Below are positions 14,177-20,157 of a DNA stretch of 64,000 bases, piece after piece. Under the pieces are notes generated by a model, which was given only the letters and a program-made list of their open reading frames with translations, was not told the origin of the DNA and made no database searches. The stretch's first letter is position 1. Each line of letters begins with the position of its first letter. The stretch is taken from positions 2,294,001 to 2,358,000 of the forward strand of contig NZ_JAVLAS010000001.1 of assembly GCF_032190635.1 (NCBI RefSeq), in the 5' to 3' direction. The stretch is from Levilactobacillus zymae. GTDB lineage: Bacteria > Bacillota > Bacilli > Lactobacillales > Lactobacillaceae. The position numbers and the translations under genes were made by a program.

Positions 14177-15439
14177 TTAATCGTTGATGGACGCACTAGA
14201 ATCTGCATCCGTCGCCGGGGCTTCGGCGGGTTCACTAGCCGCTTCATCGACGGACGCACTTGACGTGGTGTCTGCTGCGGGAGCATCCGCGTTGACCGAC
14301 GCACTGGTCGTGGCATCGGGGTTCCCCTCAAGCTTTTGTCCCGTCTTGGCTAAGTACCATTTGATGGTCGGCATGATGTCTTGAACGTATTCGTTGACTC
14401 CCATGTAGTGTCCTTGTTCGTCGTGCATGGCGCGGTAATTGTGCACGATGTACTTGTCCGCGGTGTTGCCCGGAACCGGCATGCTGACTTCTGGCACTTG
14501 CCCCGTCCGCAAGGCGTGAATGACTTCCTTGACGTGCTTAACCACGCGGGCGTTCTTCGGGTGAACCATCGCGAGTGGGTTCCCCGCTTGGTCCGGCGTC
14601 CGGGCAGCCAACATCTTCTCGGCCGGCGCCATCTTATTGTAGTAGATAAATTGATTATTGCTATCGGCGTAGGTTAATTCCAATGGCATCGAGTTCAGAA
14701 AGGCGTTCAATTGATCGACCGTCAGTAACCCCCGATCCAACTTGACGTAGTCGTTACCCGCAGCCGCGTGCGTCTTTTCAGCGGCCTGTTCCACCCAATC
14801 CGGCGCCGCCATGTCCACGCCCTCGACCGTGGTCGCAATCTTACCGGTTGCGTTCAAGTCTTCGCTTTCCGCACCGGTGTCCTCCGGGTGATTCAAGGTA
14901 TTAATTACCTTCACAAACTTCACGAATTTTTGAAGGGTGGACTGCAAGAAGTTAACGGTTCCGGAATCCTTCAAGTTGTCGTTTTCATCAAAGGCATCCT
15001 TCACTTCGCCTAACAGAAATTCGTTACCCGGCAAGACCACCGCGTTAACCCCGGGGGCTTCCAGGATTTGCCGCAGATTTAATTGTGCCCGTGACGACCC
15101 TTGATCGTAATAGGAAGCGCCGACGATCATGACCGGTTTCCCGTCCAACGGGTGAATCTTGTAGGATAACCATTCGATCACACTCTTAAGACTTGCCGTG
15201 GTGGTGTGGTTGTGTTCCGGCGTCGCAATCACGACCCCGTCAGCGCTTTCAATCTTGCGCTTCAAGTATTGGATGGCATCGCTTTCGGTCTGGTCATCGC
15301 TTTCGTTAAATAGCGGCACGTCCTTAATGTCCAACATTTCAATATCGGCTAAGTCGCTAAAATGAGTGGCCATGTACTTTAAGAGAATTCGATTATATGA
15401 TTTATCGGCTACTGAGCCAGCAATTCCTACTAATTTCAT
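14177..15439 (-). CDS. NAD(P)H-dependent FMN reductase fused to a PAS-like domain, with flavinylation-like tail repeats
   Basis: A 420-residue cytosolic protein. Residues 1-185 are a flavodoxin-like NADPH-dependent FMN reductase ([14 protein letters not shown] phosphate loop; [38 protein letters not shown]). Residues about 245-375 look like the PAS domain of DUF438-type proteins ([43 protein letters not shown]). The last 45 residues are an acidic Ala/Ser-rich tail with three copies of D-[AT]-[TD]-[TS]-S-A-S-[VI]-[ND] ([27 protein letters not shown]). These resemble the D-x-x-[ST]-G-A-[ST] site to which ApbE attaches FMN covalently. ApbE is encoded two genes upstream. A flavin-bearing flexible tail is my inference. 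Confidence 0.85.
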
Positions 15440-15455
15440 GCGTTTTCCGCTCCTT

Positions 15456-16064
15456 TTACAGCTTATTCCAGTCGAAGTTTTTCGTGTCTTTTTGATTGAG
15501 ATCCTTGGCGTGGTTCAGTTGTCCTGACACCGCGACGAAGGTTTGGAAGTCCTTAAATAGGCCGTCCAATTGAGCGACCTTATCGGCGTCCTTCAAGTTC
15601 CCCTGATCGTCAAATGCGTCCAGGGAATGCCCCAAGAGATATTCGGAACTCGGCATAATGCGGGCGCGCAGCTCCGGTGAATCCAGAATCTGCCGCAGGT
15701 GGGCCTGCGCACGGGAAGACCCCAGTGAGCCGTACGACGCCCCAACGATCATCACGGGTTTATCCACGAACGGGTGAACCCGGTGAGATAACCATTCCAA
15801 CGCATTCATCAGCGCAGAAGGGACCGCATGGTCGTATTCGGGGGTCGCGATAATGACCCCGTCAGCCGTGTCAATCGCCTGGGCCATGGCCAACACGGGC
15901 GCGGGAACCGGACTGTTTTCGGGCTTGTTAAACAACGGGAGATCAGTGATTTCCATGAGTTCAATTTCTGCCTGATCGGCAAAATGCCGCTTCATGAACT
16001 GGAGTAACGTTCGGTTGGTGGACACTTTTGCGTTGGTTCCAACCATTGCCACAAATTTATTCAT
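15456..16064 (-). CDS. NAD(P)H-dependent FMN reductase family protein
   Basis: A 202-residue flavodoxin-fold protein closely related to the N-terminal domain of the next gene, and so probably from a duplication. Shared blocks are [38 protein letters not shown] and [20 protein letters not shown]. It lacks the PAS domain and the tail. The start is ATG 16062-16064 with AAAGGAG upstream; the upstream extension of the frame has no ribosome site. It lies 16 bp before the fusion gene, so the two are co-transcribed. It likely binds FMN and moves electrons from NAD(P)H to an unknown acceptor. Confidence 0.9.
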
Positions 16065-16117
16065 TATAGACCGCTCCTTTAAACTTTGGGGATTCGCGGC
16101 GCACACCGCTTAGCTCC

Positions 16118-16146
16118 ATTGTAAACGCTTTTATATACTATAGCAA
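16118..16146 (-). promoter_or_regulatory. Promoter with cre-like site before the FMN reductase pair
   Basis: TTGCTA (16146-16141), a 17-bp spacer and TACAAT (16123-16118) on the minus strand. A cre-like 14-mer TAAAAGCGTTTACA (16133-16120) overlaps the spacer and -10 and differs from the CcpA consensus at one conserved G. The reductase pair may thus have its own carbon-controlled start besides read-through from apbE. Confidence 0.6.
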
Positions 16147-16151
16147 TATTT

Positions 16152-17063
16152 TCACAAAATTGTGGAATAAAGTTGCCCTGTCTGAGTAATAATTATGCCA
16201 TCGATCCCCGACGTTTGCCGCAATTGCGCCATTGCCGCTTCCACGGGTTGTCCGAATAATCGGGTGGTCCAAAGCTCACCGGTGATCGATTGGGCCGAAA
16301 TGATGGTGACACTCGCCATCTCGGTGGGCATCGGGTAGCCGGTCACCGGATCCAAAACGTGGTGGTAAGTATGCCCAGCGGCGTGTAATTGCCGCTCATA
16401 AATTCCGGAGGTCACCACCGACTTGTCCCGAACCCGGATCACCAGCCGGTTTTGCCCCCGTGGTTTCCCCGGATCCTGGATGCCAATTCGCCATTGCTGA
16501 TCGGCGTGTTGCCGTTGCGGACCGAAGACCACCACGTTGCCACCCAGGTTAATCAGCCCCGCCGTGACCCCCACAGTCGTGAAATAGTCGTGGAGGAGAT
16601 CGGCAACGTAGCCCTTGGCGATGGCTCCCAAGTCCAGGGTCATTCCCGGTCGTTGCAGATAAACGGTCAGGTGCCGTGGATCCAACGTTATGGCCGCCGG
16701 ATCCGTCAGCCGTAACGCAGCCTGAATCTCGGCATCACTGGGTTTACGGGCATCGTTAAAGCCGATTCGCCAGGTTTGCACCAACGGGCCAATGGCGATA
16801 TTTAAGTGTTCGGCCGTATTGGCACTGTGATCGCGGCCAATCCGGATCAGGTCAAAAAGTTCGGGATCCACGGCCACCGGTCGCTGACCGGCTTGGTGCG
16901 CGATAGCCATCAATTCCGACGTTTCATCGTTCGCACTAAATCGATGTTCATAAACCTTCAACCGACGAACGGCCTCAGTCAACACGGGTTGCGGTTGCCG
17001 GTGCGTAATCGTCAGTGTAATCACGGTGCCCATCAGGTGCACCACTTGAGTGGCCACAGGCAT
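16152..17063 (-). CDS. apbE: FAD:protein FMN transferase
   Basis: A 303-residue ApbE that transfers FMN from FAD to a Ser/Thr of a target protein through a phosphodiester bond. Family blocks are present: LMGTVITLTI, YEHRFSANDETSEL, TLDLGAIAKGYVAD, INLGGNVVVFG, VTSGIYERQ and HHVLDPVTGYPMPTE. It has no signal peptide or lipobox, unlike the exported ApbE forms, so it should modify cytosolic targets. No FMN_bind domain protein is encoded here; the nearest plausible target is the tail of the 14177-15439 product. AGGAGG precedes the ATG. Confidence 0.95.
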   Translation of the reverse strand: MPVATQVVHLMGTVITLTITHRQPQPVLTEAVRRLKVYEHRFSANDETSELMAIAHQAGQRPVAVDPELFDLIRIGRDHSANTAEHLNIAIGPLVQTWRIGFNDARKPSDAEIQAALRLTDPAAITLDPRHLTVYLQRPGMTLDLGAIAKGYVADLLHDYFTTVGVTAGLINLGGNVVVFGPQRQHADQQWRIGIQDPGKPRGQNRLVIRVRDKSVVTSGIYERQLHAAGHTYHHVLDPVTGYPMPTEMASVTIISAQSITGELWTTRLFGQPVEAAMAQLRQTSGIDGIIITQTGQLYSTIL

Positions 17064-17946: not shown

Positions 17947-19800
17947 ATGCCCACCAAAAAGCTTGCGCCCAGCGCCTACCTAGTCGGACTTCTGCTCTTC
18001 GGTCTCAGCTTCTTTCTTCCCGGCATTAGCCGGTCTCTGGGATTCCTAGCCGCTACGCTGTTTGCCGGTTACCACATCGTTATCGAAGGCCTGATTGAAA
18101 CCGTGACCGATAGTCGGGCCCAACATAAATTTGCCCCCAACATTCACATCTTGATGTTTCTGGCCGCGCTGGGGGCCATCCTCATTGGTAGCTTCGAGGA
18201 GGCCGCCCTGTTGATCCTAATTTTTGCCGGCGCCCATTTCTTAGAAGAATACGCCGAGGGTAAAAGCCAACGCGAAATCACGGCTCTCTTAGACTTAAAT
18301 CCGGTGGCGGCCCGCCGCTACACCACCACCGGGGCGATCGAGGTGGTCCCCGTGGCCGACCTCGCCGTAGGGGATCGACTCCAGGTCTTAAACGGCGGTC
18401 AGGTGCCGACCGATGGCACCATCATTAAGGGAACGGCCACGTTGAACGAAGCGGCCATTACCGGGGAGAGTATCCCCCAAGAAAAGACCGTCGATGCCAC
18501 CGTCTTCGGCAGTACCATCAATGGCGACTCAACCTTCGACATGGTGGTGACCAAGGATGCCCAGGACACGGTTTTTGCTAAGATCCTCCAGCTAGTTCAA
18601 GACTCCCAACAATCCTTGGGGAAGACCGCCACGAAGATCAAGCGCTTCGAACCCCTCTACGTCACGACCGTCTTACTACTATTACCGGTGGTCTTTCTGG
18701 TAGGAATCTTCCTGATTCATTGGTCGGTACCCACCAGTCTTTACCGGACCATCGTCTTTCTAATCTCGGCCTCGCCGTGTGCGTTGGCCGCTGCCGCGGT
18801 TCCCGCAACCTTATCGGGACTGTCGAATCTGGCCCGTCACGGAGTCCTCTTCAAGGGGGGCGCCTACCTGAATCAGTTAGCCGAGTTACAGGCCGTGGCC
18901 TTCGACAAGACGGGGACCCTGACGGCCGGAAAGCCCACGGTCACCGACACCGAATTCGTACCGGGCGTCAACGCTGACCGACTTACTAACCAAATCGTAG
19001 CGATGGAACAGCAAAGTAACCACCCCCTGGCCACCGCCATTGTCGCGCACTTCACCCCCACCCAATCGCTTGACGTCACCGTCACCAATCAATTAGGTAA
19101 GGGATTGGAAAGTCAGATTGACGGTCATACCGTCCGGATCGGGAAACCCTCCAGTTTTACAACGGTCCCCGCTGCCCTGCAAACCCGTAGCGATGAACTC
19201 GCTGCGGCGGGCAAGACCGTGATCTTCGTGGCCGTCGACGACCAAGTTCAAGCGTTACTGGCCCTGATGGACGTCCCGAACCCAGCGTCGCAAGCGGCCA
19301 TCGATTACTTCAAACAACACCAGATTCACACCCAGATGATCACCGGAGACGCCCAGCTCACAGGTCAGGCCGTGGGGGCCGCACTAGGCGTGGACGAGGT
19401 CGCCGCCAACGTCTTACCGGAGAATAAGGCCGCCATCATCGACCAGCAGAAGCAACGCTACGCCACGGTGGCCATGGTTGGCGACGGCGTTAACGATGCC
19501 CCCGCCCTGGTCAAGGCCGATATCGGCGTAGCCATGGGCGACGGAACCGACGTGGCGATTGACGTGGCCGATACCGTGCTGATGCAAAACGACCTGTCCA
19601 AGCTCACCTACGCCCACCGCTTATCCAAACGGTTAAACCAAATCATCTGGACAAACCTTATCTTTGCGTTGGCAATCGTGGTATTATTAATTGTGCTGAA
19701 CTTTTTAAGCATTACCAACATCGCTTGGGGCGTAGTGGTTCACGAGGGGAGTACCCTGCTCGTGATCTTAAACGGCTTACGCTTATTGATGTTTAAATAA
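17947..19800 (+). CDS. P1B-type metal-transporting ATPase, P1B-4-like (Co/Fe/Zn efflux)
   Basis: A 617-residue transport ATPase, normal for short P1B pumps. It has no N-terminal metal-binding domain. The actuator motif is ITGESIP, the phosphorylation site FDKTGTLTAGKP, and the hinge MVGDGVNDAPALVKADIGVAMG. The membrane metal motif is SPC (ISASPCALAAAAV) rather than CPC, and the last helices carry HEGSTLLVILNGLRL; this SPC plus HEG[GS]T pair defines the P1B-4 subgroup, whose members export Co2+, Fe2+ or Zn2+. A cadmium-pump label would therefore be misleading. An ArsR/SmtB repressor gene follows after 36 bp, and AGGAGG precedes the ATG. Confidence 0.9.
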   Translation: MPTKKLAPSAYLVGLLLFGLSFFLPGISRSLGFLAATLFAGYHIVIEGLIETVTDSRAQHKFAPNIHILMFLAALGAILIGSFEEAALLILIFAGAHFLEEYAEGKSQREITALLDLNPVAARRYTTTGAIEVVPVADLAVGDRLQVLNGGQVPTDGTIIKGTATLNEAAITGESIPQEKTVDATVFGSTINGDSTFDMVVTKDAQDTVFAKILQLVQDSQQSLGKTATKIKRFEPLYVTTVLLLLPVVFLVGIFLIHWSVPTSLYRTIVFLISASPCALAAAAVPATLSGLSNLARHGVLFKGGAYLNQLAELQAVAFDKTGTLTAGKPTVTDTEFVPGVNADRLTNQIVAMEQQSNHPLATAIVAHFTPTQSLDVTVTNQLGKGLESQIDGHTVRIGKPSSFTTVPAALQTRSDELAAAGKTVIFVAVDDQVQALLALMDVPNPASQAAIDYFKQHQIHTQMITGDAQLTGQAVGAALGVDEVAANVLPENKAAIIDQQKQRYATVAMVGDGVNDAPALVKADIGVAMGDGTDVAIDVADTVLMQNDLSKLTYAHRLSKRLNQIIWTNLIFALAIVVLLIVLNFLSITNIAWGVVVHEGSTLLVILNGLRLLMFK

Positions 19801-19836
19801 GGCAGCTTAATTCTTTAAACCATTGGGGGTTGCAGC

Positions 19837-20157
19837 ATGCCGACCGATCCATCGCTCGACCCGACGTTGCCCAGCGACAACGAGTTACGTCCGGTCCTCT
19901 CCATTTTCAAGGCAATCAGTGATCCCTCCAAGATGCGGATTATCCTGTTGATTGCCCACCAATCGCTTAGCGTCGGAGAGATCACCAACCGGCTGAATAT
20001 CAGTCAATCGGCGGTCTCCCATCACCTACAAACCTTGCGTCAGCTCAACCTGGTCACCAACGTACGGGTGGGGCGCGAAATGCACTACCAAGTCACCGAC
20101 CAACACGTCATTCAGATTTTCGAACTGACCAAAAAACATGTATTGGAAGACGCCTAA
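19837..20157 (+). CDS. ArsR/SmtB family metal-sensing repressor
   Basis: A 106-residue winged-helix repressor. The DNA-reading helix is in RLNISQSAVSHHLQTLRQLNLV. The alpha3N site Cys pair is absent. The alpha5 helix has D-x-H-x10-H-x2-E (TDQHVIQIFELTKKHVLED), matching the alpha5 metal site of CzrA/SmtB-type sensors (D-x-H-x10-H-x2-H/E). It should bind Zn or Co and release the upstream promoter that drives the ATPase. GGGGGTTGC lies before the ATG, and a terminator follows. Confidence 0.9.
   Translation: MPTDPSLDPTLPSDNELRPVLSIFKAISDPSKMRIILLIAHQSLSVGEITNRLNISQSAVSHHLQTLRQLNLVTNVRVGREMHYQVTDQHVIQIFELTKKHVLEDA

Follow-up and report, generated by a model that had tools for sequence, protein, structure and literature searches.

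An acidic, motif-bearing tail on a cytosolic FMN_red-PAS fusion of Levilactobacillus zymae is very probably an ApbE substrate

ApbE enzymes move FMN from FAD to the last Ser or Thr of a seven-residue motif (PMC12052999). In the 64,000-nucleotide stretch of Levilactobacillus zymae DNA analyzed here (the window), an earlier note made from the letters alone had pointed to an apbE gene two genes upstream of a gene for an FMN reductase-PAS fusion, and had proposed that the tail of this fusion carries covalent flavins. We asked whether the tail is a substrate of the neighboring ApbE, and what flavins held there could do.

The fusion protein and its tail

The fusion gene lies at 14177..15439 on the minus strand and encodes a protein of 420 amino acids, which we assigned from the open reading frame, Pfam, an AlphaFold model and a fold match. 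Residues 1-146 match FMN_red in Pfam (E 4e-37), and residues 244-355 match PAS_10 (PF13596) with an E-value of 7e-25 and 88.2 bits against a curated cut-off of 22.1. The PAS_10 region is strongly conserved in the fusion and its homologues. It has a fold match to PDB 2qkp, the C-terminal PAS domain of SMU_1151c; the solved piece is that domain only and gives no function for the fusion. At E 0.1, the Pfam search detected no FMN_bind (PF04205) domain in the fusion. The protein ends in an acidic tail spanning residues 375-420 (14177..14317, minus strand, stop codon included), which shuffling and the AlphaFold model both mark out, residues 376-420 falling under pLDDT 50 and thus being modeled as disordered. 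Within it are three motifs, DATTSAS at residues 375-381 (14297..14317, minus strand), DTTSSAS at residues 390-396 (14252..14272, minus strand) and DADSSAS at residues 411-417 (14189..14209, minus strand), with FMN predicted on S381, S396 and S417, respectively. All three fit the pattern D-x-x-[ST]-G-A-[ST] except that Ser stands in place of Gly, and the window tail has no canonical copy. The open reading frames, Pfam, shuffling and the AlphaFold model therefore agree with what the earlier note had described: a disordered acidic tail with three motifs on an FMN_red-PAS fusion, in which Asp, Ser/Thr, Ala and the final Ser keep register around the substituted position.

The motifs are far more frequent than composition predicts. 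In the 53-residue window tail, the relaxed motif D..[ST][GS]A[ST] was seen three times compared with a mean of 0.022 in shuffled tails, and none of 20,000 shuffles reached three. To this tail we added 118 of the best 120 of 1416 homologue matches, which had been drawn from 7995 candidates; P0013 and P0023 were left out as multi-domain proteins, and the best 120 lean towards close relatives. Across the resulting 119 tails the relaxed motif occurred 307 times against 1.5 expected by shuffling, and it did not occur in the bodies of the same 119 proteins. The loose form D...[GS]A[ST] was present in every tail (119/119), the relaxed form D..[ST][GS]A[ST] in 117/119 and the canonical D..[ST]GA[ST] in 92/119, once or more in each case. 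Of the 353 loose motifs of this set, 307 had Ser or Thr at position 4 and the other 46 had Ala; at position 5, Gly occurred 212 times and Ser 141 times, and 336 motifs had Ser at position 7. The last motif ended two to three residues short of the C-terminus in 112 of the 119 tails. With respect to position 5, 41 tails had G forms only, 24 (the window tail included) had S forms only and 54 had both; because the two forms are mixed within single tails, we treat them as one motif.

The earlier note had named a tail that is not conserved as evidence against its proposal. We found the tail to be strongly conserved in these 119 proteins from the best 120 of 1416 matches. In an alignment of 60 sequences, D375 and A380 were invariant and S381 nearly so, and D390, A395 and S396 were nearly invariant. 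A second search, in which PAS-type matches of at least 312 amino acids were newly counted, recovered a motif past residue 330 in 71 of 73 and none in the other two; many shorter matches, some of them partial, had no motif.

ApbE, the operon and co-occurrence across genomes

The apbE gene is indeed two genes upstream of the fusion, at 16152..17063 on the minus strand, and encodes 303 amino acids. The ApbE match (PF02424) spans residues 11-289 (E 1e-75; 254.9 bits against a cut-off of 25.6), and in alignment the core begins at residue 9. The earlier note had also stated that the enzyme lacks a signal peptide, and we likewise found no clear one: by a simple measure, the N-terminal hydrophobicity is 1.56, compared with 2.16 and 2.26 in two exported-type proteins. 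HHVLDP is retained in the enzyme, as is the Thr of the final site. Position 263 is Glu in the window ApbE and in 24/24 relatives aligned, and Asp in the three solved ApbE chains compared. The cytosolic-type ApbEs compared here, including the L102 enzyme (by eye) and those of the operon relatives, have Glu at this last active-site Asp position, and a GE(I/L)WTTRLFG-like stretch is common to most operon-linked ApbEs. We considered the Asp-to-Glu change as a mark of the operon, an idea weakened by the ApbE of L102, which is beside an FMN_bind protein and by eye seems to have Glu, and by that of L100, which is not beside a fusion and has Glu too.

Between apbE and the fusion gene is a gene for a small FMN_red protein (15456..16064, minus strand; open reading frame and Pfam), 202 amino acids long from its ATG and without a tail; a GTG start 42 bases upstream of the ATG is also open. 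Before it we noted by eye a promoter-like TTGCTA-17-TACAAT (16118..16146, minus strand), with the same hexamers in L. zymae (L035) and in L. acidifarinae (L042), and TTGCTA-17-TATAAT at the site in L. suantsaii (L036). A candidate CRE-like catabolite-repression site at 16120, in the gap that separates apbE from the small FMN_red gene, was dropped, as the pattern is lost in the close relatives L035, L036 and L042. We then read 24 named loci, which came from one pattern scan reaching close relatives only. In 23/24, the fusion or a related FMN_red gene had the small FMN_red gene immediately upstream (at L043, the upstream gene was masked by an overlapping frame in ORF picking). The order apbE, small FMN_red, fusion or relative was found in 13/24, and 11/24 showed no apbE within the stretch examined. 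The 24 include an 800-amino-acid type (L057), a form without PAS (L056), a gene split into two frames (L053) and one cut by a contig end (L054). Among fusion loci hand-chosen at order level, all ten had apbE, small FMN_red and fusion in this order. No acceptor gene recurred beside the operon in the named and order-level loci read. By eye, an XRE-type regulator-like gene is directly upstream of apbE in three loci (L094:166-1023, L095:10-804, L096:5061-5927); upstream of apbE in the window, at 17947-20157, there appear to be a P-type metal-ATPase-like gene and then an ArsR-type regulator-like gene on the opposite strand.

The fusion and ApbE co-occur across genomes. In a family set of 397 genomes, with strong ApbE defined by a best E-value of at most 1e-40 and full fusion by at most 1e-105, 102 genomes had a full fusion and all 102 of these had strong ApbE; 123 had strong ApbE without a full fusion and 172 had neither. 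Two of the 102 fusions cover only residues 1-296 (G372) and 82-351 (G295). In an order set of 198 genomes (fusion cut 1e-98), 75 had a fusion, again all with strong ApbE; 101 had strong ApbE alone, and none of the 22 without strong ApbE (20 with no match, two weak) had a fusion. Seven genomes are common to the two fusion lists, and full fusions occur in 7/9 families sampled in the order set, as read from the table. The association gives p = 2e-31 (family) and 2e-5 (order), with p-values and counts that ignore shared ancestry. The survey for tails lacking ApbE, proposed in the earlier note as a way to refute its idea, thus found no full-length fusion without strong ApbE, and one partial exception. 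Among the matches listed, strong ApbE was present in 12/13 genomes with PAS-part or split forms; the exception, G261 (76% complete), has a PAS-plus-tail match (residues 217-417) close to the edge of a contig and gave no match to ApbE.

Five genomes on the other side of this association retain the reductases. In four of them (G153, G435, G517, G566) ApbE gave no match; each still has the small FMN_red gene and, after it, a second FMN_red gene, which ends after the FMN_red domain and has neither PAS nor motif. In G533, the only ApbE match has a lipoprotein-type N-terminus, and the FMN_red pair is again kept without PAS or tail. Since these five genomes, with no ApbE or an exported one only, have neither PAS nor tail, both parts seem tied to cytosolic ApbE. 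Cytosolic-type ApbE is also present without the fusion (G476, L100), so other ApbE substrates exist.

The earlier note had stated that there is no classical FMN_bind target, which stands for the window and fails for the genome, where a sole FMN_bind match, in an exported-type protein, is found far outside the window at C1:1557752-1557976. At this second locus (L070:2645-4720, C1:1556144-1558219), the exported-type FMN_bind protein contains SGAS and adjoins a 220-amino-acid ApbE-like frame, which by eye seems to lack the HH(I/V)xDPxTG region; a neighboring membrane protein may be ferric-reductase-like, which is a guess. FMN_bind is present in 24/28 family-set genomes whose only ApbE match is weak, and the short ApbE-like protein of the L070 type is possibly a divergent mini-ApbE. 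Among the 102 family-set fusion genomes, 18 have no match to FMN_bind, the substrate family searched, and ApbE therefore probably has another substrate there.

Taken together, we conclude that the domains, the conservation of the motif and the tie to cytosolic ApbE are supported by comparative evidence. Given the co-occurrence with ApbE and the loss of PAS and tail where cytosolic ApbE is missing, we regard the tail as a very probable ApbE substrate even with Ser at the Gly position, a judgment that draws on sequence comparison.

What the tail flavins may do

Relatives of the fusion combine its parts in several ways. Some have FMN_red and a tail without PAS (L071, L073, L074, L075), mostly with weaker motif copies that have Ala at position 4, and P0186 of Streptococcus gallolyticus has FMN_red, one motif and no PAS. 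In P0160, P0174, P0184, P0186, P0192 and P0221 we observed a further type of tail, in which FMN_red and one motif precede an FDK(T/A)LD..FG.DLGI-like C-terminus, without PAS. Others have PAS and a tail with no FMN_red on the chain (L076-L080, L098 and L072), and at L072 FMN_red is encoded by a separate adjoining gene. One chain of 882 amino acids (G428, L088:1997-4645, minus strand) has FMN_red, three PAS_10-like units and, clustered between these units, nine motifs; P0013 and P0023 (711-712 amino acids) are built in a similar way, with FMN_red and several PAS units separated by motif clusters. Finally, in G003 (L082) a single frame of about 800 amino acids encodes both FMN_red and FMN_bind and contains an ApbE motif, and L083 and L057 were judged to be of the same type by length and one motif; a small FMN_red gene is upstream in all three. 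The FMN_red of these proteins is of the same type as in the window fusion, whereas their covalent site is in FMN_bind, and by eye an FAD-type, fumarate-reductase-like domain seems to follow as an outlet. They suggest that an FMN_red of the fusion type is able to pass electrons to FMN that is covalently bound. The L. zymae genome has no such protein, its sole FMN_bind match being the exported-type one. As a possible sign of covalent flavin we also considered loss of a loop Arg in FMN_red, and dropped it: tail-less versions lack the Arg too, and the pattern used for the comparison recovered only 1/8 own-genome paralogues.

The explanation that we favor, and think probable as a whole, is that the fusion is a cytosolic ApbE substrate whose tail flavins act as a mobile store or relay of electrons from NAD(P)H. 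The neighboring ApbE would put FMN from FAD on the last Ser of each of the three motifs; covalent FMN on S381, S396 and S417 is highly likely, because the ApbE chemistry, the flavinylated tails of Lactococcus and the Ser variant of trypanosomatids are known. Electrons from NAD(P)H would enter the non-covalent FMN of the FMN_red domain, probably in cooperation with the small FMN_red partner, and could pass from there to the tail flavins and onward to an acceptor. The PAS domain may space, dock or sense the tail flavins. Several observations count against this explanation: all three window motifs have Ser where the published motif has Gly, and some motif copies in relatives depart further from it, with Ala at position 4 (46 of the 353 among the best 120 of 1416 matches). 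The roughly 50% flavinylation after a G-to-A change in K. pneumoniae fumarate reductase (PMC12052999), the lack of a recurring acceptor gene in the loci read, the 11 named loci with no apbE in the stretch examined, the cytosolic-type ApbEs without a fusion, G261 and the anchor model for Lactococcus weigh on the same side. A more elaborate version, tentative and in our opinion doubtful, is a cytosolic 'flavin brush', in which PAS_10 modules and disordered linkers with covalent FMNs would be loaded from NAD(P)H by the FMN_red pair. It would serve as a tethered multi-electron store or wire without FMN_bind folds, the PAS domains docking or sensing the flavins.

The tail flavins could instead be tethered cofactors of the FMN_red pockets of the fusion and its small partner, the tail being an anchor and not an additional relay. 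Anchoring was proposed for the Lactococcus FMN_red proteins, in which AlphaFold models place the tail site near the flavin site (PMC11334425), and it would suit both the presence of tail and FMN_red on the same chain and the existence of PAS-less FMN_red proteins that have one site or a few. However, one chain has nine motifs and a single FMN_red domain, other motif-bearing chains consist of PAS plus tail with no FMN_red, and tail-less FMN_red pairs persist in genomes without ApbE, where their pockets probably hold free FMN. For these reasons we favor extra carriers over anchoring, which we regard as rather unlikely. We infer that electron relay, which the earlier note had pictured as a swinging tail next to a PAS sensor domain, is the likeliest role of the tail flavins.

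Two further explanations were considered. In a redox sensor, the state of NAD(P)H would be read out by the tail flavins, and the PAS domain would bind a flavin or another ligand and signal to a partner, a role that would account for the presence and strong conservation of PAS_10 and could involve the XRE-type regulator-like gene seen by eye beside apbE in L094-L096. Yet the Pfam search found no output domain in the fusion, the regulator was not seen recurring in the other loci read, and in several proteins the PAS unit is repeated between motif clusters, making a sensor improbable. A low-complexity spacer that is not flavinylated would be consistent with the absence of the published Gly from all three window motifs and with G261, the incomplete genome with a tail and no ApbE match. 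We consider it very improbable, since the motif is enriched far beyond composition in the 119 tails from the best 120 of 1416 matches, every full-length fusion of both surveys is accompanied by strong ApbE, the tail is lost along with cytosolic ApbE, and related FMN_red proteins are flavinylated (PMC11334425). The claim that the tail is an ApbE substrate is well supported, and a precedent for its Ser variant is quoted in PMC8065229.

Comparison with known systems

ApbE flavinylation has mostly been discussed for exported electron transfer, whereas the system in the window is cytosolic and widespread in lactic acid bacteria and relatives. If the flavinylated tail is confirmed, a protein can hold several covalent flavins without needing folded FMN_bind domains, the usable bacterial motif extends to D-x-x-[ST]-S-A-S, many cytosolic ApbE enzymes gain a substrate, and the tail becomes a natural multi-site flavin tag. 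As a tag, the ApbE motif works best at a protein end, and changing its G to A in the fumarate reductase of K. pneumoniae left about 50% flavinylation (PMC12052999).

The closest known system is the FMN_red proteins with C-terminal flavinylated extensions described in 2024 in Lactococcus lactis and L. taiwanensis, for which flavinylation was demonstrated by co-expression with their own ApbE and by point mutants (PMC11334425). As described there, the class has an unstructured C-terminal extension with one to two motifs and apbE nearby, mostly in Firmicutes. The window fusion resembles it in having FMN_red, a disordered C-terminal tail and a nearby apbE. It differs, by a comparison with the published description of the two Lactococcus proteins and not with their sequences, in having three motifs (up to nine in one relative), PAS_10 between FMN_red and the tail, and Ser for Gly in all motifs. 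An FMN_red protein with an ApbE-modified tail is therefore already published, as is Ser for Gly in the motif, and the suggestion of the earlier note that the module is possibly undescribed can hold only for variants such as its PAS-containing form. We found no report of a PAS-containing flavinylated FMN_red in the open-licence literature; the term 'PAS domain' has no occurrence in PMC11334425, whose supplementary table may list PAS members. The same literature yielded no report of PAS-plus-tail proteins, chains with up to nine motifs or S-only tails.

The Ser variant has its parallel in the fumarate reductase of trypanosomatids, with the motif D(g/s)x(s/t)(s/g)AS and FMN on the last Ser (quoted in PMC8065229). 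Both proteins are intracellular and use a short terminal motif in which Ser can replace Gly; unlike the fusion, the trypanosomatid enzyme has one N-terminal site, a fused ApbE-like domain and no FMN_red or PAS. For several flavins on one chain, the comparison is with SaFMN3 and CbFMN4, which carry several covalent FMNs per chain through ApbE in a role described as largely unknown (PMC10339131). These proteins are described as secreted, with their flavins in folded domains, whereas the window fusion has no signal peptide and bears its sites in a tail modeled as disordered. The 'flavin brush', if true, would be the cytosolic counterpart of such secreted multi-flavin proteins.
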